DNA of 64,000 bases from an uncultured Myxococcales bacterium (GTDB lineage Bacteria > Myxococcota_A > UBA9042): NCBI GenBank assembly GCA_903955385.1, contig CAJBNH010000194.1, positions 1-64,000 on the forward strand, given 5' to 3'. The translations under genes and the position numbers were made by a program. Numbering within the stretch: the first letter of the stretch is position 1; every line of letters begins with the position of its first letter. Under the pieces are notes generated by a model that worked only from the letters and a program-made list of their open reading frames with translations, did no database searches and was not told the origin of the DNA. Shown piece after piece: positions 16,225 through 51,465 of the stretch.

Positions 16225-17454
16225 TCAGGACTGCGCCTTGCGTTGGGCAAACGCGTTCAGTCCGGCCTGAATGATGGCGACCGAACGCTCAAGCTTGGCC
16301 GTCTCCAGAACATACGCCGCGCGTATCTGATTGCTCCCGGCCCCGGGGGTCTCGTAAAAGCCGTCCCCCGGCGCAAGCATGACCGTCTCGCCGCCCAGAT
16401 CGAACTCCCGCAACATGAAGATGCAGAACTCCTCGGCATTCGCGACCGGCAGACCCGCCATCAGGTAGAAGGCGCCCGCTGGCGACCGTACGGTCACGCC
16501 GGGAATGCGCTGCAGCCCCTGCACCAGCACGTCACGACGACGACGGTATTCGTCGATGGCGCTTCGAAGCTCGGTCTCAGGCGTCGCAAGCGCGGCCCAG
16601 GCTGCCAGCTGATCCACGACGGGCGGAGACAGCCGGGCCTGAGCAAACTTCAGGCACGCCGCATAGATCTGCGGATTGCGGGTAACCATGCAGCCCACAC
16701 GGGCTCCGCACGCCGAGTAGCGCTTGGACACCGAGTCGACCATGAACGCCACGTCGTCGAGCCCCGGCTGAGCGAGCACTGAGGGAGCGACCTTGGCTCC
16801 ACCGTCATAGACGAAGTCGCGATAGACCTCGTCACACATGAAGTACAACCCTCTCTCCACACACAGCTTTCCCAAGTCCGCCAGCTCTTGCGCCGACAGC
16901 ATCGCGCCCGTCGGATTGCCCGGGGTCGACAACAGAACCGCCCGCGTCCGAGGTCCGATGGCCTCCCGCACCCGATCGAGCGACAATTGAAACCCTTCTG
17001 AAGCGTGGGTGGGGATCGGCCGGACATTGACGCCCAGAAGGTGCGCAAACCCCTTGTAGTTCGGATAGAACGGCTCGGGCACCAGCACTTCGTCATCGGG
17101 GTCGCAAGTCGCTGCGATGCCAAACTGCAGGGCCTCAGAACCGCCAACGGTCACCAGAATCTGCGAGGGCGCAATCGGGGCTCCACCGGCCGCAGCGCCC
17201 AGACCGTTGTAGTAGTCCGCAAGGGCCTTGCGGTATCCAAGGGAGCCTTCCGACACGCCATAGGCCAACACTGGCTCCTGAAACGTGCGGTAGGCGTCCA
17301 GCACCGCACGCGGCGTCGGGATGTCGGGCTGGCCGATGTTCAGATGGTGAACGTGCACGCCGCGTTGGCGTGCGAAGTCGGCATGGGGCGCAAGGCGGCG
17401 AATTGGGGAAGCGGGCGCCTGCTGGCCACGAAGGGAGGGAACGGGGGGGGGCAT
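16225..17454 (-). CDS. Pyridoxal-phosphate aminotransferase, class I/II
   Basis: A fold-type I aminotransferase of 409 residues, aspartate/aromatic aminotransferase-like. Visible features are LNIGQPDIPTP near the N-terminus, VTVGGSEALQ, TPGNPTGAML (Asn180, Pro181), DEVYRDF (Asp208, Tyr211) and the Schiff-base lysine in DSVSKRYSACG (Lys244), plus the substrate-binding Arg region near IRAAYV. The length is usual. I chose ATG 17454 because GGAGG lies 8 bases upstream; the frame extends to 17685 without homology. It ends the minus-strand run that begins with the thioredoxin-fold lipoprotein, but there is no clear functional link. The amino acid substrate cannot be told from sequence. Confidence 0.9.
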   Translation of the reverse strand: MPPPVPSLRGQQAPASPIRRLAPHADFARQRGVHVHHLNIGQPDIPTPRAVLDAYRTFQEPVLAYGVSEGSLGYRKALADYYNGLGAAAGGAPIAPSQILVTVGGSEALQFGIAATCDPDDEVLVPEPFYPNYKGFAHLLGVNVRPIPTHASEGFQLSLDRVREAIGPRTRAVLLSTPGNPTGAMLSAQELADLGKLCVERGLYFMCDEVYRDFVYDGGAKVAPSVLAQPGLDDVAFMVDSVSKRYSACGARVGCMVTRNPQIYAACLKFAQARLSPPVVDQLAAWAALATPETELRSAIDEYRRRRDVLVQGLQRIPGVTVRSPAGAFYLMAGLPVANAEEFCIFMLREFDLGGETVMLAPGDGFYETPGAGSNQIRAAYVLETAKLERSVAIIQAGLNAFAQRKAQS

Positions 17455-17570
17455 CGCAAGACCTCCAGCCAAACGACACGGCCGAGTCACCAGAGCCTGA
17501 CGCACGAAGCGCGCAACGGCAAGGGTTCCACCAGAAGGCAAGCGTGGCGAAAACGGGCGGTGCGGGCGAT

Positions 17571-18014
17571 TCATGCGTGTGGGGGACGGCGAAGGCTCTG
17601 CAAGAACACGACAAAGTCGCGGCGCACGTCGAAGCTCAATCGGACTGTGGCGATGGTGCGGTCCTGTTCGACCAGCTCGCCCCAAAGCGTCGTCGCGCTC
17701 GCAATCGGCCGCATCAGGCGCACGTGCTTGGCACCTGAGAACCGCAGCAGACGCCCGTCGGCGGTCGCAAACTCAAAAGCGTAGGTCAGGTGCCGGGGAG
17801 CGCGCGCCTCCAGCCGCAACTCGCCTTGGACAGTAGCGGCGGTGGCAAGGCCATCGAAGGTCGCCGTGCCCGAGAGCTCACCCCGGGCAGCTTGGAGTTT
17901 TGCCCCCGACCTGCTGAGCCGAATGGACAACACCACCTCGCAAAGGCGCGCCTCGTCCGGACGGTCGACAGGAAACCAGCTGCCGCGCAAGGTCTCTTGG
18001 AAAGTCACGCTCAC
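17571..18014 (-). CDS. Conserved hypothetical protein (147 aa)
   Basis: A small protein with no signal peptide and no cysteine apart from one near the N-terminus. It reads as alternating beta strands (GELSGTATFDGLATAATVQGELRLEA, LTYAFEFATADGRLLRFSGAKHVRL), so a compact beta fold is likely. The pattern FSGAKxVRL recalls a small beta domain I associate with GMC-type oxidoreductases in myxobacteria, but this is from memory and uncertain. Its ATG overlaps the stop of the cysteine-less thioredoxin-like gene upstream (18011-18014), so the two are probably co-translated and may work together. No function can be given. Confidence 0.7.
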   Translation of the reverse strand: MSVTFQETLRGSWFPVDRPDEARLCEVVLSIRLSRSGAKLQAARGELSGTATFDGLATAATVQGELRLEARAPRHLTYAFEFATADGRLLRFSGAKHVRLMRPIASATTLWGELVEQDRTIATVRLSFDVRRDFVVFLQSLRRPPHA

Positions 18015-19321
18015 GGTGGGGCTCCGGGGGCAGCGGTCGGTCCGCCGTCGGTCGGGGGCGTGGCATCTCGAACCTGTCGCACTGCTTGGGTCAGGCGCTC
18101 CAAGTCCAAGGGGCCCGTGTAGAGGCGGTCGCCGACGTAGATCACAGGGTCGTCAGCCATGTCGAGCCTGACGGACAGATCCGCGGCCAGTCGAGCCACG
18201 GCACCCGTGGAGGGGGCGTCGATCCCGTTCTGAAACGCTCGCTTGGGCAGCCGCAGCTTGCGGACGAGACGGCGGATCACGCTCCAGTCGTTCGGATGTG
18301 ACGACGCAAACAGTCGCTCTGCCATCTCCAGGCCCTTGCCGAGACGAGCTGCGACGGCAAAGGTGGCGCCCGACGCCGTCACGCCCGGCTCCGCGTGCGA
18401 GATACATGAAGCCATGTGCAGGCGAATCGGCAGGTCGGGCGAGTCGACCAGCGGCCGCAAGAGCCGAAAGGCCTCGCGCGAACCTGGACCGGTGAAGTCC
18501 ACGAACAGGTAGACAGGAACCCCGGTTCCGAATGCCGGCAACGGCGACAAGTCGCCCAACGCCTCGGGCTCGCTCAAGTCGGTCGAGGCCACCGCGGCAC
18601 TGGGGTCGCCGCCGCTGGTTCGCGGCACGGACAGTCCTGTTCTTGTGGACGAATCGGCAACCGTTGCCGCAGCAGCTCCTGACCGCCAAGCGGCAAAGGG
18701 CGCCAGCAAGTCCGGTGCGTGCCGCTGCAGGCCCCGCAGCTCTGTGCCTCCAGAGGCGTCTGCCTTGCGGTAGTCCTCGTTCGATTCCTCCAGAGCAACT
18801 TGCAGGGCGCGCTGCAACGCCTCAGGCGGCGGCAGACCTGACAGCGGGCGACCGCTCAGGAACGCCATCGGCGCCGCGCGAACTCCCAGAGCCAACGCGG
18901 CCTGACGGTCCCGGTCAACTTCCCGTGTCACTGTCGAACTCTTGGCCTGTTCCGCCAGCTCGCGCGGGTCGATGCCCACCGACGCGACGGCGCGGGCCAC
19001 CGCCGGACTGTCCAGCACCGGCTCTCGCAACAGCGCTTCGACAAAGGCGATCTCGAGTCCCCGCGACCGCAGCGCCGTCGCCGCCCTGGCCGGTTGTCCG
19101 CCAGCGTCGAGAGCCACAGCGGGAACGTAGTGCAACACCAACAGCCCGCGCGGCACGTCCTGCAAGGCATCGCGGTAGAGGCGAAAGGCCTCCCGACTGT
19201 CAGGAGCCTGCAGGTCCAGAAACAGCCGGACCGTGACAGACGCCTGCCCCAACGCCAACCCCGGCCACAGGGCCGAGATCAGCGAGCATGTCCACCAGAG
19301 GATGAGCAGGCGTTTCCGCAT
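18011..19321 (-). CDS. Exported protein with two thioredoxin/DsbA-like domains lacking CxxC
   Basis: 436 residues with an N-terminal signal peptide (about 26 aa, ending ALG-Q). Two DsbA-like halves follow. In each, the strand that normally leads into the active site is intact but the CPFC is gone: FLDLQAPDSREAFRLY in the first, FVDFTGPGSREAFRLL in the second. The cis-Pro loops remain (AAPMAFLSG, DDPVIYVGD). Only one cysteine is present in the mature protein (HMASCISH). It therefore cannot act as a thiol oxidase and may be a chaperone-like or binding protein. I place the start at ATG 19321 (MRKRLLIL), with GGAAGGTGG upstream; ATG 19339 is also in frame. It lies 94 bp downstream of the three-domain DsbA-like lipoprotein gene. 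Confidence 0.82.
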   Translation of the reverse strand: MRKRLLILWWTCSLISALWPGLALGQASVTVRLFLDLQAPDSREAFRLYRDALQDVPRGLLVLHYVPAVALDAGGQPARAATALRSRGLEIAFVEALLREPVLDSPAVARAVASVGIDPRELAEQAKSSTVTREVDRDRQAALALGVRAAPMAFLSGRPLSGLPPPEALQRALQVALEESNEDYRKADASGGTELRGLQRHAPDLLAPFAAWRSGAAAATVADSSTRTGLSVPRTSGGDPSAAVASTDLSEPEALGDLSPLPAFGTGVPVYLFVDFTGPGSREAFRLLRPLVDSPDLPIRLHMASCISHAEPGVTASGATFAVAARLGKGLEMAERLFASSHPNDWSVIRRLVRKLRLPKRAFQNGIDAPSTGAVARLAADLSVRLDMADDPVIYVGDRLYTGPLDLERLTQAVRQVRDATPPTDGGPTAAPGAPP

Positions 19322-19415
19322 CCGACGCCACCTTCCCAAGCTGCACGAAGGGCGTGGTCAGCGTAGGGGGCGGGCGGTCAAAGGGCAAGATTGTGGGAAG
19401 GAAGCAGAGGAGCGA

Positions 19416-21431
19416 CTAGCGGGTGCCGAGCAAGCGGCGAACGGCCGAGCGGAACGTGTTGGCCGAGAAACCGGTCTGCGGCACGAACGCGTGGCCGTTG
19501 ATGAACACCGACGGCGTGCCCTTGACGCCGATCGTCTCGCCGATCTTGCGCTGCTTGGCGACGGCGTCGGCGTGCGTGTGGCGATCCAAGGCCTCCTTGA
19601 GGGCCTTGACGTCCATGCCGGCCTTCTTCGCACGCTCAAGCACGGCGTCCTGATCCAGCCGACTGTTGTCGGCCATGATCTCCTTGTGGAACTGCCAGAA
19701 CTTGCCCTGCTTCTGGGCTTCCTGACCGGCTTCGGCCACGGCCTGCGCCATCGGGTGGATGTCGCTCAGCGGGAAGTCCATCCAAGTCACCTTCACGCGA
19801 CCCGGGAACTCCTTCTCGATATCGGCGATGTGCGGATCCAGCCGAGCGCTGAAGGGGCACTGGAAGTCCTGGAAGGTCACAATGTGGATGGCTGCGGCGG
19901 CGGGGCCACGGGTGGCAGCGCCGGTGACGTCGATCTCCTTGGGCTCGAGACCCAGCGAGTCCAGCAGCTTGCCCTTGCCGACGATCGCCTCGTAGACCTT
20001 GTCTGCCGCGGTGCCGGCCTTGATCAGGTCCTCCGCCTTCTTCATTTCGACGTCGATCAGCTCGCGCAGGACCTTCTCTTCCTTGGCGCCCACAAGCTTG
20101 CGGCCGTTGATGAAGAGGTTGGGGGTTCCGCGGGCGCCCAAGGCGGCAGCCTGCTCGGCGTCGGCGTCAATGCGCTCCTTGGCGCCGCTGGCGGCAAGCG
20201 CCGTGTCGAACGGGCTGCGGTTCAGCTTCAGCTCGGTGGCATAGGCCTTCAGCGAGTCGAGGTCGAGCTTGTCTTGGCGGGTCAGCAGCAGTTCGCGCAT
20301 CTCCCAGAACTTGCCCTGCTGGCGGGCGGCTTCCAACGCCTTGGCGGCGTTCTCGGCATCCTTGTGGAAGGGCAGCGGATTGTGCTTGAACACGACGCGA
20401 ATCTTGCCCTTGTAGTCGTCCGACAGCTTGCTGAGCGTGGGCTTGAGACGGGCGCAGAAGGGGCACTGCATGTCTTCGAACACGACGACGGTCACGGGCG
20501 CCGTCGCGGGGCCGACGGAGGGGTCGTCCGGGCGAATCGCCACTTGCCACACGGTGCTCGGGTCGCCCTGCTCGCCGCCGACCTGCACAGGATCACCGAC
20601 TTGCATGCCGCCGGTGCCGCCGACGGCGGTCACGTTGGCGCTGGCGACGCCTGAGGTGCGGACGACCTTCGCGGGAACTTCGGCCGCCGGCGCGGGCTGG
20701 CCCTTCAGGACGTACTTGATGTAGTCGGCGGCACCCTTGGGGTTGCCGGACGAGACGAGCGCCTTCTGCAGGTCGTCCATCTTGGTGCCGGTGGCCAGCA
20801 GGGCCTCCGCGCGGGCGATCTCTTCGGCAATGCGGTTCTCCCAGACCTTGGGGGACTGAACGCCCTGCATCAGGTTGCCGTTGATCATGAACGACGGCGT
20901 GCCGGTCATGCCCATCGCCTTGGCCAGTGAGACGTCGCGTCCCACGATCTTCGCGGTGTCGGGGCTGTCCATGTCGGCCGTGAACTTCTTGGCATCGATC
21001 CCAGCCTCGACGGCCCAAGCCACCGCAGCCTCACGGGTGATCGCTGCGCCGCCCATGAACTTGTCGAAATACTTGCGATAGGCCTTCTGCTTGTGAGCGG
21101 CGACTGCTGCCTTCGCACCCACCACGCTCTGCTGATGCACGTCGAGCGGGAAGTTGAAGAAGCGGATGCGAACGTCCTTGTTGTGCTTCGCGACCACATC
21201 CAGCAACGGCTTGGCCTGCGCACGGCAGAAGGGACACTCGAAGTCCACGAAAGCGAGGATGTCGACCTTCGGGGTCTCTGCTCCGACGAACGGAGTCTCC
21301 AGACCGGCGCCTTGACCTGCGGCATCACCGCTCTTCTGGCATCCGGCCGCAAGCGCGGTCAGACCCAGGACCGCGCAGAACACGCTGATCGAAAATCCGC
21401 GAACCGCGGGGGCGAAACGGAACAAGGACAT
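19416..21431 (-). CDS. Lipoprotein with three DsbA/thioredoxin-like domains
   Basis: 671 residues, with lipobox LAAGC (Cys31). Three DsbA-like modules follow in tandem. Module 1 has FECPFCRAQ (Cys66, Cys69) and GTPSFMING. Module 2 has MQCPFCARL (Cys323, Cys326) and GTPNLFING. Module 3 has FQCPFSARL (Cys525, with Ser528 in place of the second Cys) and GTPSVFING. The spacing of about 200-260 residues fits complete DsbA folds. It is probably a periplasmic oxidase or isomerase anchored to a membrane; single-Cys module 3 could form mixed disulfides. The start is ATG 21431 with AGGAG 7 bases before it. A cysteine-less paralogue is encoded just downstream. Given the many Cys-rich exported proteins in this window, a role in their folding is a reasonable inference. 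Confidence 0.88.
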   Translation of the reverse strand: MSLFRFAPAVRGFSISVFCAVLGLTALAAGCQKSGDAAGQGAGLETPFVGAETPKVDILAFVDFECPFCRAQAKPLLDVVAKHNKDVRIRFFNFPLDVHQQSVVGAKAAVAAHKQKAYRKYFDKFMGGAAITREAAVAWAVEAGIDAKKFTADMDSPDTAKIVGRDVSLAKAMGMTGTPSFMINGNLMQGVQSPKVWENRIAEEIARAEALLATGTKMDDLQKALVSSGNPKGAADYIKYVLKGQPAPAAEVPAKVVRTSGVASANVTAVGGTGGMQVGDPVQVGGEQGDPSTVWQVAIRPDDPSVGPATAPVTVVVFEDMQCPFCARLKPTLSKLSDDYKGKIRVVFKHNPLPFHKDAENAAKALEAARQQGKFWEMRELLLTRQDKLDLDSLKAYATELKLNRSPFDTALAASGAKERIDADAEQAAALGARGTPNLFINGRKLVGAKEEKVLRELIDVEMKKAEDLIKAGTAADKVYEAIVGKGKLLDSLGLEPKEIDVTGAATRGPAAAAIHIVTFQDFQCPFSARLDPHIADIEKEFPGRVKVTWMDFPLSDIHPMAQAVAEAGQEAQKQGKFWQFHKEIMADNSRLDQDAVLERAKKAGMDVKALKEALDRHTHADAVAKQRKIGETIGVKGTPSVFINGHAFVPQTGFSANTFRSAVRRLLGTR

Positions 21432-21585: not shown

Positions 21586-22992
21586 TCACGGCTTGCGAGG
21601 TTTGCGGTTTTCCGCTTCAGCTTCGACGGTCAGTTGTCGCCAAAGCGCCAGCCTGTCGGCGATCCGCGCCTCGTGTCCGTTTCGGGTCGGCTCGTAATAG
21701 CACTGCCCCTGCAACGCGGTCGGAAGGTGGTGCCCGGGGGCCCATCCGCCATGCGCGTGCGGATCGTCGTAATCCTTGCCCCAGCCCATATTACGCGTCA
21801 GGCCGGTGGTGGGATTGCGCAGGTGCAGCGGAACCTCAAGCGATCCGGTGCGTTGGACTGCCTCGGTGGCTGCGGCCAGAGCCCGATAGCTGGCCTTCGA
21901 CTTGGGCGCGCACGCCAGATAGGTCGTTGCCTGCGCCATCGCGATCCGCGACTCCGGCAACCCCGTCAGCTCGTGCGACTGGGCCGCGGCGACGGCAAGG
22001 ATCAGCGCCTGCGGGTCGGCATTCGACACGTCCTCAGCCGCAAACACGACCAGCCGGCGGCAGATGAAGCGCGGGTCCTCGCCCGCTTCGAGCATCCTCG
22101 CAAGGTAGTACAGCGCCGCATCCGGATCCGAGGCCCGCATCGACTTGATGAAGGCCGAGATCACCTGATGATGCAGGTCACCATCGCGGTCGTAACGAGG
22201 TCCTTGCCGCATCGGCGCGCGGTCCAGCGCCGCTTCGTCGACATGCGCGACCAGCTCGGGGTCTGCCGCAGCCTCATGCAGCATCAAATCGGCCGCAGTC
22301 TCGAGCGCAGTCAAGGCCCGCCGCGCATCCCCATCCGCTTGGACGGCCAGCCGCTCCAACGCCTCTGCGCTTACCGTCAGGCCAGACCCACCGTAGCCGC
22401 GCGGGTCGTCGATCGCTCGCCGCAACAACACCAACAGGTCGGCCGAGGCCAACGGGTCCAGCACGACCACGGCGCAACGGCTCAGCAGCGCTGACGTCAG
22501 CGAGAATCCTGGGTTCTCCGTCGTCGCGCCGACCAGCGTGACCAACCCCGACTCGACGTGGGGCAGCAGAGCGTCCTGCTGGCCTTTGTTGAATCGATGG
22601 ATCTCGTCGATGAACAGCACGGTGGGCCGCCCGGACCGCCGCGCCGCCTCCGCCCGCTGCACGACTTCTCGCACCGCCGCCACGCCGTCCAGCACCGCAG
22701 ACAGCGCCTCGAACTCTGCCTGACTGTGAAGGGCAACCAGTCGCGCTACGGTCGTCTTTCCGGTGCCCGGCGGCCCCCACAGCAACAGCGAGGGCAACCG
22801 GTCCGCCTCCAGCGCGCGCCGCAAAAAACCATCTTGTCCCAGCCACTTGGACTGCCCGACCAGCTCGTCCAAGGTGCGCGGTCGCATGCGTTCGGCCAGC
22901 GGGGGACGAGCAGGGGCCGCCGCTGAGGAAGCGAACAGGCTCAGCGATTGCCCGCGCGAAGTGTCCGCGCGACTGGTTCGGGGGGGCTTCAC
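21586..22992 (-). CDS. rarA: Replication-associated recombination protein A (AAA+ ATPase)
   Basis: RarA/MgsA (468 aa), a clamp-loader-like AAA+ ATPase acting at stalled replication forks. The sequence shows MRPRTLDELVGQSKWLG, Walker A GPPGTGKTT, Walker B LFIDEIHRFNKGQQDALLPHVE, sensor-1 GATTENP and the SRC motif, then the family-specific C-terminal domain with YDRDGDLHHQVISAFIKSMRASDPDAALYYLARMLEAGEDP and GWGKDYDDPHAHGG. The N-terminus has about 35 extra residues compared with E. coli. Its ATG overlaps the stop of the upstream universal stress gene (22989-22992), so both are co-transcribed. Confidence 0.94.
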   Translation of the reverse strand: MKPPRTSRADTSRGQSLSLFASSAAAPARPPLAERMRPRTLDELVGQSKWLGQDGFLRRALEADRLPSLLLWGPPGTGKTTVARLVALHSQAEFEALSAVLDGVAAVREVVQRAEAARRSGRPTVLFIDEIHRFNKGQQDALLPHVESGLVTLVGATTENPGFSLTSALLSRCAVVVLDPLASADLLVLLRRAIDDPRGYGGSGLTVSAEALERLAVQADGDARRALTALETAADLMLHEAAADPELVAHVDEAALDRAPMRQGPRYDRDGDLHHQVISAFIKSMRASDPDAALYYLARMLEAGEDPRFICRRLVVFAAEDVSNADPQALILAVAAAQSHELTGLPESRIAMAQATTYLACAPKSKASYRALAAATEAVQRTGSLEVPLHLRNPTTGLTRNMGWGKDYDDPHAHGGWAPGHHLPTALQGQCYYEPTRNGHEARIADRLALWRQLTVEAEAENRKPRKP

Positions 22993-23924
22993 GCTGCCGA
23001 CTTGCCCTCGCGTGCCGACCAGCCATGCCGGATCGTCAGCACCGGGCAGCGCGCGTTCTTGATGACGTGCTCAGCGACGCTGCCCAGCAAGGTGTTGCGC
23101 ACCGAGTCTCGGCCGATCGTGGGCAGCACGATCAGGTCGACGCCGTTGCGGTCGGCGTAGCTCATGACGCCAGAACCCGGCTTGTTGTCCTCGATCAACT
23201 GCCAGCACGCAGGCGCCCGTTGCAGCGTGTGCGCGGCGTCCGAAAGACGAGCCTGCAGGCGCGACTTGATCTGATACTGGATGTCCTTCGGCAGCAGGAT
23301 GTCACCCTCAGGCGTCGTGAGTACCTGTGTCTGCAGTGGCTCGACGACATGGACGACCTCGACCCGGCCGCCGAACTCGATGGCGAACTCCTCGGCCGCC
23401 ACCAACCCCTCCTCGAAGGGGCCGTTGAAGTCGATCGGGTGCAGGATCCTGCGGAATCCGCTCCAGCTTTCCGCCCTCTCTGCGAACTTCTCGTTGACCG
23501 TCAGCACGGGCACATCGGTGTCGCGAATGATGCGCGCAGTCGTCGAACCGAGAACTCGCCCGGTGAACTCGTGGTGCCCTTCGGTCGGGATCACGCAAAG
23601 ATCGGGCTTCGACTCAAGAATCAGGTCCACCGCCAGATCAAACGTCGACCCGACCCGCGTCATGATTTCGCAGTCGACGCCCATGCCGGCAAGCTCAGCG
23701 CGGAACGATTCGAGTTGAGGCATCGCACGCTCGCGGTCGGCCTCATCGATCAGACTGCGCAGGCGGGCGGCCTCCCCCTCCAGGTAGAACAATTCGCTGG
23801 AGCCGCGGAAGGCGTGGAAGATCGTTACTCTGGAACCGAAGGCTCCGGCCACAGCCGCGATCGGCCGGAACGCGAGGCGCGTGGCTTCGGTCAGGTCGGT
23901 CAAGAGCAGGATGCGGTCGAACAT
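22989..23924 (-). CDS. Tandem universal stress protein (UspA family)
   Basis: 311 residues made of two Usp folds. The first starts MFDRILLLTDLTEAT and ends near GSTTARIIRDTDVPVLTV; the second starts RRILHPIDFNGPFEEGL and ends TLLGSVAEHVIKNARCPVLTI. The second half keeps the glycine-rich region before the last strand (PTIGRDSVRNTLLGS) that in ATP-binding Usps contacts nucleotide. There is no signal or membrane segment, so it is cytoplasmic. ATG 23924 is preceded by GGAG. It is the first gene of an operon with rarA, suggesting a stress- or DNA-damage-linked role (inference). Confidence 0.88.
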   Translation of the reverse strand: MFDRILLLTDLTEATRLAFRPIAAVAGAFGSRVTIFHAFRGSSELFYLEGEAARLRSLIDEADRERAMPQLESFRAELAGMGVDCEIMTRVGSTFDLAVDLILESKPDLCVIPTEGHHEFTGRVLGSTTARIIRDTDVPVLTVNEKFAERAESWSGFRRILHPIDFNGPFEEGLVAAEEFAIEFGGRVEVVHVVEPLQTQVLTTPEGDILLPKDIQYQIKSRLQARLSDAAHTLQRAPACWQLIEDNKPGSGVMSYADRNGVDLIVLPTIGRDSVRNTLLGSVAEHVIKNARCPVLTIRHGWSAREGKSAA

Positions 23925-24307: not shown

Positions 24308-24631
24308 ATGAACGTCCTCCGCACGCTCGCCGCTTTCGTCTTCGCCCTTTCCCTCATCCTGGTGATCGGCTGCTCGTCGGCCGCCAAGAAGGATGATGCC
24401 CCGACCGGTCCTGCCTATCCCGCGTGCTCGGCCGACGCGAATTGCGCCAGCCACGGTCAAGTCTGCGCGAACGGTGCCTGCGTGCAGTGTCGCGACGTCG
24501 GCCAGTGCTCCAGCCTCGGCCCCTGCGGTCGCTGCGAAGCCGGCACCTGCGTGAAGACCGACGGCTGCTGCATGTCCGACACCGACTGCCCGGCCGGCGT
24601 CCGCTGCAAGGCAGGCAAGTGCTCGCAGTAG
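24308..24631 (+). CDS. Small cysteine-rich lipoprotein, paralogue of the Pal N-terminal module
   Basis: 107 residues. The signal ends in LVIGC (lipidated Cys22). The mature part is almost entirely a cysteine module, with about 16 cysteines: YPACSADANCASHGQVC, then ACVQC, PCGRCEAGTCVKTDGCC and TDCPAGVRCKAGKC. It aligns position by position with residues about 30-110 of the Pal-type lipoprotein encoded 285 bp downstream (YPNCSTDSHCKARGEFC, KCAQC, CGRKADCC), but the OmpA domain is absent. The start ATG has GGAG 7 bases upstream. A duplication of the Pal module is the simplest origin. The function is unknown; it is probably an envelope structural protein stabilised by disulfides. Confidence 0.8.
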   Translation: MNVLRTLAAFVFALSLILVIGCSSAAKKDDAPTGPAYPACSADANCASHGQVCANGACVQCRDVGQCSSLGPCGRCEAGTCVKTDGCCMSDTDCPAGVRCKAGKCSQ

Positions 24632-24771: not shown

Positions 24772-24799
24772 TTGATTACTGACAACTCGGACCTACAAT
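24772..24799 (+). promoter_or_regulatory. Candidate sigma-70-type promoter for the Pal-like gene
   Basis: TTGATT (24772-24777), a 16-base spacer and TACAAT (24794-24799). It lies about 115 bases before the start codon at 24916. Confidence 0.5.
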
Positions 24800-24915
24800 A
24801 CGCGCCTTGCGGGCCTCGTTTGGGGCCGCGCCCCCATGGTCGCTCCGTCACCCCAGTCACCGTCTCCGCACACGGGTGCAGGCCAGCGCCCCAGCAGCCG
24901 GTCAGCGAGGTCTTC

Positions 24916-25734
24916 ATGCTTCAATCTCCGTTCGCAGCCCCCACTCGCGCCCTGCGCAGCGTGCTCGCCCTTGGGGCGTTTGTTGCCGCCGCTTGGCTGC
25001 TGACCGCCTGCGGTCCGACCTACCCCAACTGCAGCACCGACTCGCACTGCAAGGCGCGCGGTGAATTCTGCCTCGACGGCAAGTGCGCCCAGTGCCGCAT
25101 CGACGCCCACTGCCCCGGTGCCGGCACCGACGCTTGCGTCACGTGCGCCCAGGGCGCGTGCGGTCGCAAGGCGGACTGCTGCACGTCCAAGCTCGACTGC
25201 GGCTCCGGCCGTCAGTGCGTGGGCAACCGCTGCATCGCTGAGTGCGCGGCGGATACCGACTGCACGGGCGGCAAGAAGTGCGTTGCGGGCTCCTGCACCG
25301 CACCGGCCGGCGTTCAGGCTGGCGGCGGCTGCAAGGCCGACACCGACTGCGGCGCAGGTCTGATCTGCGACAGCGGCAAGTGCGTTGATTCGTCTGGCCT
25401 TTGCCGCCCGGTGCCGGTGTACTTCGACTTTGACGAGTACGCGCTGACCAGCTCGGCTCAGGACGCCGTGTCCGCGACCAGCAAGTGCTTCAAGGACAAC
25501 GACGTGAAGTCCGTCATCATTGAGGGACACACCGACGAGCGCGGCACCGACGCGTACAACATGGAGCTGGGCAATCGCCGCGCGAAGGCCGCCAAGGAGT
25601 ACCTGCTGCAGATCTCGCCCAAGCTGAAGGCCAAGACCCTGTCGTATGGCAAGACCAAGCCGGTCTGCAGCGAGGAGAGTGAGGCGTGCTGGTACCGCAA
25701 CCGCCGCTCCGAGTTCAAGGCGTCCGACAAGTGA
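24916..25734 (+). CDS. pal: Peptidoglycan-associated lipoprotein (Pal) with cysteine-rich N-terminal module
   Basis: 272 residues. The signal ends WLLTAC (Cys27 region), followed by a Cys-rich module of about 120 residues and then an OmpA-like peptidoglycan-binding domain: VYFDFDEYALTSSAQ, VIIEGHTDERGTDAYN, LGNRRAKAAKEYL, ending WYRNRRSEF. The Asp and Arg of the TDERG/NRRA motifs that hold meso-diaminopimelate are present. Normal Pal is about 170 residues without the cysteine module. The start is ATG 24916, with a GCGAGG site 5 bases before; an upstream in-frame ATG at 24772 overlaps the promoter. The next gene resembles CpoB/YbgF, as in tol-pal loci, but tolA/tolB are not here. It probably links outer membrane to the cell wall. 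Confidence 0.88.
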   Translation: MLQSPFAAPTRALRSVLALGAFVAAAWLLTACGPTYPNCSTDSHCKARGEFCLDGKCAQCRIDAHCPGAGTDACVTCAQGACGRKADCCTSKLDCGSGRQCVGNRCIAECAADTDCTGGKKCVAGSCTAPAGVQAGGGCKADTDCGAGLICDSGKCVDSSGLCRPVPVYFDFDEYALTSSAQDAVSATSKCFKDNDVKSVIIEGHTDERGTDAYNMELGNRRAKAAKEYLLQISPKLKAKTLSYGKTKPVCSEESEACWYRNRRSEFKASDK

Positions 25735-27096: not shown

Positions 27097-29055
27097 GTGG
27101 ACGCCCGCCCTTCCGACAAGCTGCCGTTCCTGCACCCTGGCCACTTCGACGTGATCGTGGTCGGTGGCGGCCATGCGGGCTGCGAAGCGGCCTTGGCGAG
27201 TGCGCGGTCGGGCTGCCAAACCCTGTTGCTGACCCACAATGTCGACCGCATCGGCTGGATGAGCTGTAACCCGGCCATCGGCGGCGTGGGCAAGTCGCAG
27301 CTGGTGGCCGAGATCGATGCGCTGGGCGGAGAGATGGCGCGCAACGCCGACCGGGCAGGCACACACTACAAGCTGCTGAACAGCTCGCGGGGACCTGCGG
27401 TGCAGGCGATGCGCGTGCAGTGCGACAAGCTGGCGTACGCGACGGCGGCGCGACGGGTGCTGGAAGGTCAGAACAACCTGTTGATCAAACAGGGAAATGT
27501 AACTTCGCTTTGGCTCGAAGACGGGCTGTTGCGCGGGGTCGCGACTTCCAACGGCCTTCGGTTCTTGACGAGCACCGTCGTGCTGACCGCCGGAACCTTC
27601 CTGGAGGCGGTCTGCCACACCGGCGACGCCAAAGAGGTCGGCGGACGCGCGGGCGACGGCGCTTCGGTGGGTCTGGGCGGCCAACTGCGCGCGTTGGGCG
27701 TGCGTACGATGCGTCACAAAACGGGGACTTGTCCGCGGTTGGACGGCCGCACGCTGGACGAGTCGCTGCTGCGCTTGGACCCCGGCCTGAAATCCCCTCG
27801 GCCGCTGTCGCGCGGAGGGCCCCCGCCGGCGCTCGCACAGATGGACTGTCTGGCCGCCGCGACGACGGCCGAGACCCATCGGATCATCCGCGACAACCTG
27901 CACCGGTCCCCGCTCTACGGCGGCGTGATCGAAGGCATTGGGCCGCGGTACTGCCCCAGCATCGAGGACAAGGTCGTCCGTTTCGCCCACCACGACAGGC
28001 ACTTGTTGTTTCTGGAGCGCGAGGGCTGGCAGACCGACGAGGTCTACGTCAATGGCCTGTCGACCTCCCTGCCGGCCGACGTGCAGGTCGACATGGTGCG
28101 GTCGATTCCTGGTCTGGAGCGGGCCGAGATCGTGCGCTTTGGCTACGCCGTCGAGTACGACGCCATCGACGCACGACAGCTGGATCGGACACTTGAACTG
28201 CCCGCGCTGCCTGGTCTCTTCTTCGCAGGACAGGTCAACGGCTCCAGCGGTTATGAAGAGGCAGCGGCCCAAGGGCTGGTGGCCGGACTGAATGCGGTGG
28301 CACGGGTGCGGAGCCAGCCGCCGGTGGTGTTCGACCGCACCGACAGCTATCTGGGCGTGCTGGTGGACGATCTGGTCACGCAGGGCGCCGATGAGCCCTA
28401 CCGAATGTTCACCGCCCGCGCCGAGCATCGACTGACGCTGCGCGCGTCGAACGCAGACCTGCGGTTGACGCCGTTGGGGCGACGGCTGGGCTTGGTGGAC
28501 GATGCGCAGTGGGGGCGGTTCGAGGCTCGACGGGAGCGACTGGCCCTGGCCCGGCAGGTGTTCGCAGACGTCGCGCTGCGGCCGACGACGGAGACGCGCG
28601 CGGTGCTTGCGAAGTGGGACCACGACCTGACGATGCCGATGTCGTTGGAGTCGCTGGTGAAACGGCCGGACCTGCCGTGGCAGGCCGTGCTTGCCTGGCT
28701 GCCGGACGACCTGCTTGCCGGTGGTGCCCATGCGTTGGACGACGATGACGCCGACGAGCTGCAGGTTGCGCTGCGCTATCAGGGCTACGTTGCCCGGGAC
28801 AACTCGCGGCGACAGCGCTCGCTGCGGGCGGAACACCTCTCGATTCCTGAGGATCTGGACTTCGCCGCGGTCGGCGGGCTGACGTCGGAGGCGGTGCAGA
28901 AGCTGCAGCGCGTGCGACCGGCGACTTTGGGGCAGGTGGCGCGCATTCCGGGACTAACCCCCGCGACTGTGCAGGCGCTGGCGGTCCACTTGGCGCGACG
29001 GCGGCGGGCGGATCGTCTGTCTGGTGCTGCGGAGTCGGGCCTCAGCGAACCTTGA
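27097..29055 (+). CDS. mnmG: tRNA uridine-5-carboxymethylaminomethyl modification enzyme MnmG
   Basis: MnmG/GidA (652 aa), the FAD-dependent partner of MnmE that builds cmnm5U at the wobble base of several tRNAs. Features are the dinucleotide fold VVGGGHAGCEAALASAR, MSCNPAIGGVGKSQLVAEIDALGG, RGPAVQAMRVQCDK, TGTFLEA-like TAGTFLEAVCHTG, HKTGTCPRL, and GLFFAGQVNGSSGYEEAAAQGL. The C-terminal helical domain ends with the LRRARPATLGQVARIPGLTP-type segment. The start is GTG 27097, one base after the upstream stop, implying coupling. Its 3' end overlaps the convergent FHA gene by 14 bp. Confidence 0.96.
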   Translation: MDARPSDKLPFLHPGHFDVIVVGGGHAGCEAALASARSGCQTLLLTHNVDRIGWMSCNPAIGGVGKSQLVAEIDALGGEMARNADRAGTHYKLLNSSRGPAVQAMRVQCDKLAYATAARRVLEGQNNLLIKQGNVTSLWLEDGLLRGVATSNGLRFLTSTVVLTAGTFLEAVCHTGDAKEVGGRAGDGASVGLGGQLRALGVRTMRHKTGTCPRLDGRTLDESLLRLDPGLKSPRPLSRGGPPPALAQMDCLAAATTAETHRIIRDNLHRSPLYGGVIEGIGPRYCPSIEDKVVRFAHHDRHLLFLEREGWQTDEVYVNGLSTSLPADVQVDMVRSIPGLERAEIVRFGYAVEYDAIDARQLDRTLELPALPGLFFAGQVNGSSGYEEAAAQGLVAGLNAVARVRSQPPVVFDRTDSYLGVLVDDLVTQGADEPYRMFTARAEHRLTLRASNADLRLTPLGRRLGLVDDAQWGRFEARRERLALARQVFADVALRPTTETRAVLAKWDHDLTMPMSLESLVKRPDLPWQAVLAWLPDDLLAGGAHALDDDDADELQVALRYQGYVARDNSRRQRSLRAEHLSIPEDLDFAAVGGLTSEAVQKLQRVRPATLGQVARIPGLTPATVQALAVHLARRRRADRLSGAAESGLSEP

Positions 29056-30415
29056 GGGCCTTGAGGTACTTCTGCTCGACCGCGGGCTTGGCAAAGCCGG
29101 TCGACAGGGCCTGGCGGTACTTCTCCTGACAAGCGGCACCGCTCTTGGCTGCGGCCAAGGCGTCGCCCTCGAGCTCAAGAACCTGCGCAATCGCATCGAG
29201 CGCGGCATTGGCGTCGGCGCGATACACCGAAGACTGCGGAATCATCCGGTGCTGCTGAATCGCGGTGGCAAGGTCCTTGCGGGCAAACGCTTCCTCGGCC
29301 TGAGCGAACCGCGCGCCGGCCCGCTTCTCCATCGCAATCATGTTCAAGGCTTCTGTCGGCTTGGTGCTGATGGGGTCGATCCGCCGCGCCTTCTTGAACA
29401 GCCCTTCAGCCTCGTCCCACTGCCGTCTGGCAATCGCATCGGTCCCGCGCTCGACCAGGTCGTCAAAGGGCGAGGCCGCGTCCGCGACCTCTGGTTGCGG
29501 TACCGGGCGGGGCGCGGGAGCGGGAGCGATCGCAACGCTGCGTCGGGCCTCTAGCGCCGGTCCCACCCAGCGGTCGTACGCCAAGCCCACGAGGATGACC
29601 AGACCGACGACCGCAACGAGAATCACTGCAACCGCAGCCACTTGGGGCAACACGGACCGGGGCGCAGGTGCGTAGGCTGCGTCGACGGCCGACAGCGGCG
29701 CCTCCGCCGGTGCGTAGGCGCTGTACTGGCTGTACTGGGCCTGCAGGCGCGGAGCCGACCTGGGCGACGGAACGTAGGCTGGCTCTTCGACCTCGATCTC
29801 TGGCATCCCGTCGACTTGATAGGCGAATGCGACTGTGCCGAAGCGAATGCGGTCGCCGTGCTGCAGTTCCTGCTGGTCGACGCGGCGGTCGTTGACGTAG
29901 GTGCCGTTCGAGCTGCGCAGGTCTTCGACGGCGACGCGTCCGGCTTGGTCCTGCGTGATCTTGGCGTGGATGCGGGAGACCGACACGTCGCTGAGCACGA
30001 CGGCGCAGTCCTTGCCGCGGCCGATCAGAACGGTGGCGTGCGCCAGATCAGTCAGCTCGCCGATGCTGCCGGGCATCGGGATCAGGCGCGCGTAGACCGA
30101 TGCGCCAAGGGGGCGGGCGTACGCAGCTCCCTCGATGTGCAGGAAGAAGTCGCCGATGCGGACCTGGGCGGACCGTGGCAGCTCGGTGATGTTGTAGATG
30201 CGCTTGCCGTTGAGCCAGACGCCGTTGGCGGCCTTCAGGTCCTCGATGTAGCAGCGTCCGTCGACCGTAAAGAGGCGAGCGTGGCGGCGCGACACGTTGT
30301 CGGCGGGCAGCACGATGTCGGCCTGCTGGCTTCGACCGACGATGAACTCCCCGTCCTCGAACGAGTATTCGTCGACAATCGCGCCGTGCTTGTCCTCGAT
30401 GATCAGCGTGAACAT
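29042..30415 (-). CDS. Protein with two FHA domains, a membrane helix and a C-terminal helical domain
   Basis: 457 residues. FHA domain 1 (about 20-95) has FIVGRSQQADIVL, NVSRRHARL and NGVWLNG; FHA domain 2 (about 125-205) has LIGRGKDCAVVL, SVSRIHAKI and SSNGTYVNDRRV. Both keep the Arg, Ser-Arg-x-His and Asn-Gly residues that bind phosphothreonine. A Pro/Tyr/Ala-rich linker leads to one membrane helix (VAAVAVILVAVVGLVILVGLAY) and about 120 residues of TPR-like helices. The N-terminal FHAs should be cytoplasmic and could read phosphorylation by Hanks kinases such as the one at 12288-13982 (inference). It is 35 bp downstream of the FHA-CpaF gene, on the same strand. Confidence 0.87.
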   Translation of the reverse strand: MFTLIIEDKHGAIVDEYSFEDGEFIVGRSQQADIVLPADNVSRRHARLFTVDGRCYIEDLKAANGVWLNGKRIYNITELPRSAQVRIGDFFLHIEGAAYARPLGASVYARLIPMPGSIGELTDLAHATVLIGRGKDCAVVLSDVSVSRIHAKITQDQAGRVAVEDLRSSNGTYVNDRRVDQQELQHGDRIRFGTVAFAYQVDGMPEIEVEEPAYVPSPRSAPRLQAQYSQYSAYAPAEAPLSAVDAAYAPAPRSVLPQVAAVAVILVAVVGLVILVGLAYDRWVGPALEARRSVAIAPAPAPRPVPQPEVADAASPFDDLVERGTDAIARRQWDEAEGLFKKARRIDPISTKPTEALNMIAMEKRAGARFAQAEEAFARKDLATAIQQHRMIPQSSVYRADANAALDAIAQVLELEGDALAAAKSGAACQEKYRQALSTGFAKPAVEQKYLKALKVR

Positions 30416-45512: not shown

Positions 45513-46115
45513 ATGAACAAGCAGATGAAGAAGTTGAACTGGATGATCGCGATGATGGCCATGACTGCGGTGCTCACCGCATGCGGCAGCGACGATACCA
45601 CCACGACCACGCCCGACACGACCGCTGACGTCGCCGCCGATACGACGGTCGACACCACGCCCGACACCACGGTTGAAGACATCGCTGCTGACGTCACGGC
45701 AACCGACGTTGCTGCAGACACGACCGTGACGGCAGCCGCCGGCTGTACGTCCTCGACCGATCAGGCGTTCATGGGCGGCCTGCTCAGCGACGAGACCAAG
45801 AACAACGCATTCCGTCTGGTCGTGAAGGACTGCACCCTGACCAAGGGCTGCTTGGCCAAGCCGACCGCGAACGACAAGGTCCTGTGCATCTCGCAGTGCA
45901 TCGCCGATGCGAACACCGCGATGTCGCTCGATTGCGCTTCCTGCTTCGGCATGAACGCAGCGTGCGGCGCTGGCCCGTGCCTCGCCAAGTGCGCGGTCGA
46001 CGCCGGTAGCCAGGACTGCAAGGACTGCATGGCGACCAACTGCGACGCGCCCAAGAACCTGTGCGCCGCTGGCAAGTGCGATCCGTACGACGGTTCCTGC
46101 ACGGCTACGAAGTAG
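45513..46115 (+). CDS. Thr/Asp-rich cysteine-containing lipoprotein
   Basis: 200 residues with lipobox VLTAC (Cys24). The next 50 residues are a Thr/Asp/Val linker of repeating DTT and DVAAD units, followed by a globular part of about 120 residues with some 18 cysteines: VKDCTLTKGCLAKP, CISQCIADANTAMSLDCASC, GPCLAKCAVDAG and CKDCMATNC. No known domain is recognised. AAGG precedes ATG 45513 closely; ATG 45525 is an alternative. The gene has a good promoter and is followed by a strong hairpin terminator, so it is monocistronic and probably well expressed. Confidence 0.83.
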   Translation: MNKQMKKLNWMIAMMAMTAVLTACGSDDTTTTTPDTTADVAADTTVDTTPDTTVEDIAADVTATDVAADTTVTAAAGCTSSTDQAFMGGLLSDETKNNAFRLVVKDCTLTKGCLAKPTANDKVLCISQCIADANTAMSLDCASCFGMNAACGAGPCLAKCAVDAGSQDCKDCMATNCDAPKNLCAAGKCDPYDGSCTATK

Positions 46116-47773: not shown

Positions 47774-48058
47774 CTACTTGCAGATCTCGGTCTTCTTGCA
47801 GGCGCAGTGCAGGCGCTTGGTGCACTTGGCGGTCTTGGCGATGCAGGTGTCGCCGCAAGCCTTGCCGTTCTCGCAATTCTTGGCCTTCAGCGTGCACTTC
47901 TTGCCGGCGGGCAGACAGGTGTCGCCGCAGGGCGTTCCCTTGTCGCAGACCTTGCAGCAGTCGGCGGCAGGCGTGCAGGCCTTCTTCGCCTCGGCCGTCG
48001 ACACTCCAGCGCCCATCAGCATCACCGCCGCGACCAGCACCATCCAAAGCTTGCCCAT
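47774..48058 (-). CDS. Small exported cysteine-rich protein (CGDTC motif)
   Basis: 94 residues. A signal peptide ends around STAEA-KK. The mature part has 14 cysteines, including DCCKVCDKGTPCGDTCLPAGKKC and KNCENGKACGDTCIAKTAKC. The doubled G-x-PCGDTC motif suggests an internal duplication. Small proteins with KGKxCGDxCI motifs occur widely in proteobacteria and I know no assigned function; metal binding or disulfide knots are both possible. AGGGGG precedes ATG 48058. It converges with the FadL-like gene. Confidence 0.78.
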   Translation of the reverse strand: MGKLWMVLVAAVMLMGAGVSTAEAKKACTPAADCCKVCDKGTPCGDTCLPAGKKCTLKAKNCENGKACGDTCIAKTAKCTKRLHCACKKTEICK

Positions 48059-50295: not shown

Positions 50296-51465
50296 ATGAA
50301 GAACGCACCCCGCACCCTTGGCTTTCTGGCCACCGCGCTGATCACCACGTTGTGGACGGCCACCGCGTTTGCTGGCGGCTACTGTGACGACAAGACCCCG
50401 TGTCCGACCGGGGAAGTCTGCATGGCCGGCCTGTGCATCCCCGAGGCGCGCTTGTGCCAGACCGACGCGTCGTGCACCTCGTGGCAGAAGTGCGACTTCA
50501 CCTGTCCGTGGCTGGGCCAGAGCACCGGCGGCAGCTCCGGAAGCGGTTCTGTCGACGCCGGCACGGCCGTTTCGGTGGACGCGACCATGAGCGACGGCGG
50601 CGAGGCTGGCAAGCAGATGCCCGCCCAGGACGCCGGCAGCGGCGCCGACCCGATGCCCTACCCCGACGACGCCCGCGGCTACTCGGACATCGAGTACGAC
50701 GTGCCCCCGCCCGCCAGCTGCCCCACGACCACCGGCGTCTGCGTCGTCGAGCCCACCAAGGTCGCGCTGCAGGACGGCTGCATGGCGTTCTGCTCGGCGA
50801 TGCTCGCGTGTGGCGGTTCTTCGACCACCAGCGTTGACGTCGACGGCGGCTCGACTGAGCCGCAGCCCGCCCCCGACGCCTCCGCCGGCTTCGCCCCTCC
50901 GTACCCCGCTGACGCAGGCACCTCCAGCGACGGCGGCTCAGGCGTGTACTACAACCCCGACGCGGCCGATCAGCTTCCGCCGGACGTGACCACCGTCCCG
51001 ACCGAGGCCGACCTGACCCAGTGCGTGCTGTTCTGCAGCGTGATCAAGCTCGAGAAGGTCGCCCAGTCCGAGTTCAGCGCGTTCGAGAAGTGCGTGGCCG
51101 AGTTCCCCGCTTGCGACACCATGAAGGCGAATTGCGCTGATGAGTCGAGCGCTTTCGAAGCGGCGATGAGCAGCGATTGGCTGTGGAGCCTGGGCTTCGG
51201 CTACTTCGGCACCGCGACCAGCGGCAACGGCGACCCGAAGACCGACAGCGACACGGCGGTCGGACCCGTGCTCAGCGACGCGTCCTCCGACGCCATCGGC
51301 TCGGGGCCCGGTCAGGAGAGCAGCAAGACCACCGTCGATGACTCGGCCAGCAGCGGCTGCACCGCGGGTGCGGCGTCCTCGCCGATCGGTCCTTTGGGTC
51401 TGGTGTTGATGGCGCTTGCGGCCGTGTGGCTGCGTCGGCGTCAGGAAGTGCGCGCGCGCTCGTAG
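50296..51465 (+). CDS. Secreted protein with MYXO-CTERM-type sorting tail
   Basis: 389 residues. A signal peptide (cleavage after AFA-GG) is followed by a Cys-rich head CDDKTPCPTGEVCMAGLC and a Gly/Ser/Asp-rich spacer. Then come two segments with CMAFCSAMLACGG and CVLFCSVIKLEKVAQ-type cysteine patterns, and another Ser/Gly spacer. The C-terminus has SSGC (Cys355), a short gap, a hydrophobic helix (GPLGLVLMALAAVWL) and RRRQEVRAR. This tripartite tail is the MYXO-CTERM signal thought to be processed by a rhomboid/CAAX-type protease, leaving a lipid-anchored surface protein. AGAGGAG precedes ATG 50296. A sigma-54 promoter lies upstream and a strong terminator follows. Confidence 0.88.
   Translation: MKNAPRTLGFLATALITTLWTATAFAGGYCDDKTPCPTGEVCMAGLCIPEARLCQTDASCTSWQKCDFTCPWLGQSTGGSSGSGSVDAGTAVSVDATMSDGGEAGKQMPAQDAGSGADPMPYPDDARGYSDIEYDVPPPASCPTTTGVCVVEPTKVALQDGCMAFCSAMLACGGSSTTSVDVDGGSTEPQPAPDASAGFAPPYPADAGTSSDGGSGVYYNPDAADQLPPDVTTVPTEADLTQCVLFCSVIKLEKVAQSEFSAFEKCVAEFPACDTMKANCADESSAFEAAMSSDWLWSLGFGYFGTATSGNGDPKTDSDTAVGPVLSDASSDAIGSGPGQESSKTTVDDSASSGCTAGAASSPIGPLGLVLMALAAVWLRRRQEVRARS

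Follow-up and report, generated by a model that had tools for sequence, protein, structure and literature searches.

Adjacent genes for tandem DsbA-like domains, with and without active-site cysteines, in one family of freshwater relatives of myxobacteria

The window analysed here, a stretch of 64,000 nucleotides from contig CAJBNH010000194.1 of an uncultured Myxococcales bacterium, carries two adjacent genes whose products are built from DsbA-like domains: a lipoprotein, P0001, and, starting 94 bases downstream of its gene, a second exported protein, P0002, which we refer to as the partner (Table 1). The signal peptide of P0001 ends in a lipobox (LAAGC followed by Q), and the protein matches both Thioredoxin_4 (E=2.4e-66) and DSBA (E=1.7e-55) of Pfam in three stretches each. 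P0002 has a Sec signal peptide with no lipobox and a single match to Pfam DSBA (E=2.7e-9). Our DsbA-domain profile matches P0002 twice, with E-values of about 7e-35 and 1e-32 that are optimistic because the P0002 domains had themselves entered the profile during its iteration over these open reading frames (ORFs). Both proteins therefore belong to the DsbA superfamily as defined by Pfam DSBA/Thioredoxin_4, and the two adjacent genes with five DsbA-like domains described in a sequence-only reading of this DNA were recovered by Pfam and by the profile.

Alignment to the profile placed CPFC, CPFC and CPFS at residues 66-69, 323-326 and 525-528 of the lipoprotein, with a GTP cis-Pro loop after each of them, and APDS (39-42) and GPGS (278-281) at the same positions of the partner domains, with AAP and DDP as the counterparts of the cis-Pro loop. 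This is the pattern that the sequence-only reading had reported. In DsbA, substrates are positioned by the cis-Pro (PMC13269488). Domains 1 and 2 of the window lipoprotein have the hallmark of an oxidase, CXXC with cis-Pro, which is absent from its domain 3 and from the partner; domain 3 has the hallmark of a trapping site, in which the nucleophilic Cys and the cis-Pro are kept and the resolving Cys is replaced. The mature partner has a single Cys, located outside the active sites. Against NCBIfam NF041057, the Rcas_1661-family (seleno)lipoprotein, P0001 scored 160.9 bits and P0002 11.8 bits, both below the cut-off of 190, and neither was assigned to that family. Selenoprotein (TGA) versions were rejected, as the "1 TGA" flags seem to come from matches that run through terminal stop codons, and no in-frame TGA was seen at an active site in the ORFs used.

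Structures were predicted with AlphaFold 2 and family alignments for the window lipoprotein and for L059, a full-length partner ortholog. Both models consist of three DsbA folds, with a mean predicted local distance difference test score (pLDDT) of 86 for the lipoprotein and, for L059, a pLDDT of 89 and a predicted template modelling score (pTM) of 0.85. A non-thioredoxin fold for the partner, which by its own account would have refuted the sequence-only reading, is ruled out by the domain profile, the L059 model, Foldseek and Pfam, the DSBA family being matched by 20/20 partner members.

The lipoprotein gene is directly followed on the same strand by the partner gene in 19/19 genomes of the family, the window included, in which a contig spans the site, and the adjacency is thus conserved, its absence being the second outcome that would have refuted the sequence-only reading. 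Contig ends account for the apparent exceptions: G002 begins inside the partner gene, and G018 and G020 stop at the lipoprotein. With a threshold of E<=1e-55, the partner profile matched 20/22 genomes of this myxobacterial family and 0/262 other genomes of the phylum, and on these searches the pair is limited to one bacterial family of freshwater relatives of myxobacteria. A contig scan with the P0002 sequence alone gave no match, and one with the partner alignment in its place gave 19 loci. The relatives that have names are mostly "Myxococcales" or deltaproteobacterial metagenome-assembled genomes (MAGs), and the isolate names of several point to lakes or groundwater. One locus, L074 (CAMDBH010000011.1), is titled as a Klebsiella pneumoniae MAG; it has the myxobacterial gene pair and synteny, and its label looks wrong.

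We compared the active sites across 19 lipoproteins and 20 partners, one partner ORF being cut by a contig end. All 19 lipoproteins have the nucleophilic Cys and the cis-Pro in both domain 1 and domain 3, and in domain 1 the GTP loop does not vary either. The resolving Cys that completes CXXC occurs in domain 1 of 6/19 and in domain 3 of 4/19, the resolving position being Ser/Thr in the remaining 13 and 15, respectively. Domain 2 has CXXC in 12/19 lipoproteins and AQE[TSA] in genus g5. Three domains are the rule in the partner: the first reads CPHS, CPYS or similar in 14/20 and has no Cys in the window, L056, L058, L062, L063 and L070; the second is the most degenerate; and the third is mostly SPHS with DEP. 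The middle domain is absent from the window partner and present in the other 19 orthologs, and, judged against these, the two-domain form of the window is derived, having lost the middle domain and the active-site Cys. The earlier description of five domains and a Cys-free partner is therefore accurate for the window and atypical of the family, in which relatives have six domains and domain 1 of most partners has one remaining Cys. In most orthologs the trapping hallmark, as CXXS with cis-Pro, marks domains 1 and 3 of the lipoprotein and domain 1 of the partner; the window partner lacks it. Partner domain 1 has its cis-Pro in every sequence (20/20), even where the Cys is gone, and substrate binding by the Cys-free copies is plausible for this reason.

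These counts bear directly on the proposal, made in the sequence-only reading, of an oxidase with dedicated substrate-binding or chaperone partners. In this explanation the disulfides of Cys-rich exported proteins would be made or rearranged by the CXXC domains, with the partner delivering clients as the b/b' domains of PDI do. The two CXXC domains with cis-Pro in the window lipoprotein are consistent with such an oxidase or isomerase, as are the presence of at least one CXXC in 15/19 lipoproteins and the plentiful Cys-rich exported proteins of the window. However, with AQE[TSA] in domain 2 of genus g5, four complete pairs (L055, L060, L064, and L066) are free of CXXC in both proteins, so that plain oxidation is not the role of the pair in general; the residues that are invariant are the single Cys and not CXXC; and for plain oxidation the genome encodes several further tandem DsbA proteins in which every domain is CXXC. 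We consider an oxidase or isomerase function of the pair unlikely, although not strongly so, and keep from the proposal the plausibility of substrate binding. Since most of the domains are without one or both reactive Cys, the probable task of the pair is to hold or check proteins as they fold, and not simply to make disulfides.

The distribution of the domain-1 thiols might also be taken to indicate a shared active site, in which the domain-1 Cys of the lipoprotein and that of the partner would act as a redox pair and a partner would dispense with its Cys where the lipoprotein has a resolving Cys of its own. Partners without the domain-1 Cys stand beside 5/6 lipoproteins with CXXC in domain 1 versus 1/13 others (Fisher p=0.003). 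On the tree of the flanking genes, however, this amounts to only two to three independent changes and is not significant once relatedness is counted; L059 and L070 are exceptions. We judge a shared site improbable and, because there are only two to three independent events, we do not claim thiol complementarity and treat it as a lead only. Slimmer still are the chances of its extension, an envelope quality-control pair acting as a misfold sensor like UGGT/ERp44, with one redox or trapping site split across the lipid-anchored monothiol array and its duplicated, Cys-poor partner, and the resolving Cys of one protein exchanged for the nucleophile of the other.

The earlier suggestion of a stepwise loss of cysteines does not hold, there being no gradient. 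In the domain tree each domain position has its own clade, four of them supported at 99-100 and P2 at 95, and lipoprotein domain 2 would be a single clade but for the dead g5 copy, which splits it. The second domain of the window partner groups with the third domains of other partners. Each of the six positions is, on this tree, an old orthologous class of its own, and stepwise decay within the locus is ruled out. The partner and lipoprotein profiles are colinear from end to end, linkers included (572 columns, probability 100, E=1.1e-43, 21% identity), showing the common origin of the two genes, and from this alignment the partner is probably a tandem duplicate of the lipoprotein gene. The simplest history would be that a three-domain gene was duplicated in tandem and that thiols were then lost independently at fixed positions; since the trees are unrooted, we infer the direction of this history.

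The same genome has other tandem DsbA proteins, including two of three domains with CXXC throughout (G000 C24 and C8). These share the layout of the lipoprotein and differ from it in having an N-terminal transmembrane anchor (assigned by eye) and not a lipobox, with no partner gene found alongside. In the domain tree their third domains form a group with domain 3 of the lipoprotein (SH-like approximate likelihood ratio test, SH-aLRT, 83-91). Another Myxococcales MAG encodes a separate protein (L090:3125-4792) with two DsbA-like domains without CXXC (DPSC, SSWS), a Cys-containing C-terminal region and an unrelated neighbourhood. We did not count it as a partner ortholog, and tandem DsbA proteins poor in Cys may have more than one origin.

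The absence of one domain and of all active-site Cys from the window copy could suggest that the partner is a functionless, decaying duplicate. Against this, its ORF is intact in 20 genomes (apart from the one cut by a contig end), its position is fixed and the domain-1 cis-Pro does not vary. The ratio of non-synonymous to synonymous substitution rates (dN/dS) in six close pairs, some with dS near saturation, is 0.16-0.34 for the partner and 0.06-0.27 for the lipoprotein; both genes are under purifying selection in these pairs. Decay is therefore disfavoured and we give it very little credence. The strict gene pairing and the common origin would also suit a pseudoenzyme with a regulatory or scaffolding role, one that binds the lipoprotein to alter how active it is or where it is located and has no contact with clients; pseudoenzymes often regulate their active paralogs. 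The kept cis-Pro groove suggests peptide binding instead, and we regard a purely regulatory partner as improbable, on a par with the shared site.

Among the closest known systems, UGGT is similar in its tandem architecture. A Foldseek search of the PDB with the L059 partner placed UGGT on top (E=1.6e-8), followed by single-domain DsbA/ScsC proteins; for the window lipoprotein single-domain DsbA proteins rank first and UGGT next. Four DsbA-like domains (TRXL1-4) make up the region with which UGGT recognises misfolded clients in the secretory compartment (PMC7687155, PMC8024514). The L059 partner has three such domains in tandem, and, unlike in UGGT, there are three in each of two proteins. No match to the GT24 glucosyltransferase, beta-sandwich or UGGT Pfam families was found among the 20 partner members, so the partner may work like UGGT but is not one. 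In their active sites the proteins resemble the CXXS members of the PDI family, which hold clients in long-lived mixed disulfides, the CRFS-type TMX5 being a natural trapping mutant (PMC11443168). ERp44, AGR2 and TMX5 share with the pair monothiol sites (CPHS/CPFS/CPYS in the latter), the cis-Pro and a thioredoxin-type fold; the pair differs in its DsbA fold with helical insertion and in being bacterial, tandem and lipid-anchored, and its trapping is a property that we infer from sequence. PDI itself (a-b-b'-a') also mixes catalytic and non-catalytic thioredoxin-fold domains, which here are of the DsbA type and sit in two genes. Individual domains match single-domain bacterial DsbA/ScsC/TsdA/BdbD proteins in sequence and fold (3gyk, 7rgv, 7unn); these are CXXC enzymes, single-domain or oligomeric, whereas the pair is tandem and mostly CXXS or Cys-free.

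The pair lies in a conserved block with the order universal stress protein, RarA, lipoprotein, partner, 147-residue protein and aminotransferase (Table 1). The stop codon of the partner overlaps the start of the gene for the 147-residue protein by 4 bases, and the two are possibly translationally coupled. The abundance of Cys-rich exported proteins mentioned in the sequence-only reading is borne out by six predicted within the window, with 4.9-14.9% Cys. The clients of the pair are likely to be Cys-rich exported proteins or lipoproteins of this kind, and the OmpA-like Cys-rich lipoprotein is a candidate client. The only VKOR found in the genome is part of one 853-residue frame (G000 contig C156, about 27400-29960; L021:5406-7964), where it is fused to a DsbA domain with the motif CSYC and, as judged by eye, to a SUMF1-like stretch and a thioredoxin domain of the TlpA type. 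As no DsbB was detected in the genome of the window organism, this single VKOR would have to drive any oxidation.

Table 1. Features of the window at and around the DsbA gene pair.
Feature	Position	Strand	Basis or remark
Lipoprotein P0001, three tandem DsbA domains, 671 residues	19416..21431	-	ORF, lipobox, Pfam, AlphaFold 2
Lipoprotein domain 1	20829..21284; CPFC at 21225-21236	-	Domain profile and its alignment
Lipoprotein domain 2	20055..20513; CPFC at 20454-20465	-	Domain profile and its alignment
Lipoprotein domain 3	19443..19907; CPFS at 19848-19859	-	Domain profile and its alignment
Partner P0002, secreted pseudo-DsbA protein, 436 residues	18011..19321	-	ORF, Pfam DSBA, domain profile, orthologs
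Partner domain 1	18803..19246; APDS at 19196-19207	-	Pfam, domain profile
Partner domain 3 (second in window copy)	18080..18520; GPGS at 18479-18490	-	Profile; domain-3 clade, SH-aLRT 99
147-residue protein, no Pfam match, neighbour of the pair in 16/19 relative loci	17571..18014	-	Synteny
RarA/MgsA-type AAA+ ATPase, conserved flank	21586..22992	-	Pfam MgsA_C 2e-58; synteny
Universal stress protein, conserved flank	22989..23924	-	Pfam Usp; synteny
Class I/II aminotransferase, conserved flank	16225..17685	-	Pfam Aminotran_1_2; synteny
Cys-rich lipoprotein	24308-24631		
Cys-rich lipoprotein with OmpA domain	24772-25734		Kept in 10 relative loci, some 3 kb upstream of the pair
Other predicted exported Cys-rich proteins	47777-48058, 2-1420, 45513-46112, 50296-51462		

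The explanation that we tentatively favor, while granting it somewhat less than an even chance, is that the pair is an envelope client-holding system, a monothiol trap or chaperone of tandem DsbA modules that would act like ERp44/AGR2/TMX5 and be built like the Cys-less array of tandem DsbA-like domains in UGGT. The membrane-anchored lipoprotein would present its three modules, and domains 1 and 3 would form long-lived mixed disulfides with thiol-bearing clients, as is expected from the fact that they keep the attacking Cys and the cis-Pro, usually without a resolving Cys. Domain 2, where it is CXXC, would provide exchange or release. The soluble periplasmic partner, keeping the fold and the cis-Pro grooves without redox chemistry, would hold clients mostly non-covalently, and oxidising power would come from the VKOR-DsbA fusion. 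Complex formation, client holding and the direction of electron flow are all putative in this scheme.

Several points weigh against this explanation. The flanking genes are housekeeping genes and uninformative on envelope function, and the identities of the clients are guesses. The pTM of the lipoprotein model is 0.50, so the arrangement of its domains is not fixed by the model. Full-length superpositions on UGGT are poor, with root-mean-square deviations of 15-20 A and TM (template modelling) scores of 0.3-0.4, indicating that the match reflects a common tandem architecture and not a common arrangement or ancestry. Finally, the window lipoprotein has full CXXC in domains 1 and 2, so that this copy can still be redox-active, with the partner reduced to two Cys-free modules, and for the window organism itself an oxidase or isomerase role is as likely as holding.

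Tandem DsbA proteins that combine active modules with inactive ones are already known in kind, and what the present loci add is a division of redox and non-redox modules like that of the endoplasmic reticulum; we found no description of such a gene pair in the open-access literature. Arrays that mix active and inactive thioredoxin folds for client holding and the recognition of misfolding are best known from the eukaryotic endoplasmic reticulum (PDI, ERp44, AGR2, UGGT). The natural variants of the pair, with three, two, one or no CXXC, would form a comparative series for the role of Dsb folds without their redox chemistry, and the pair would let one ask whether a covalent quality control of Cys-rich envelope proteins has evolved in bacteria.

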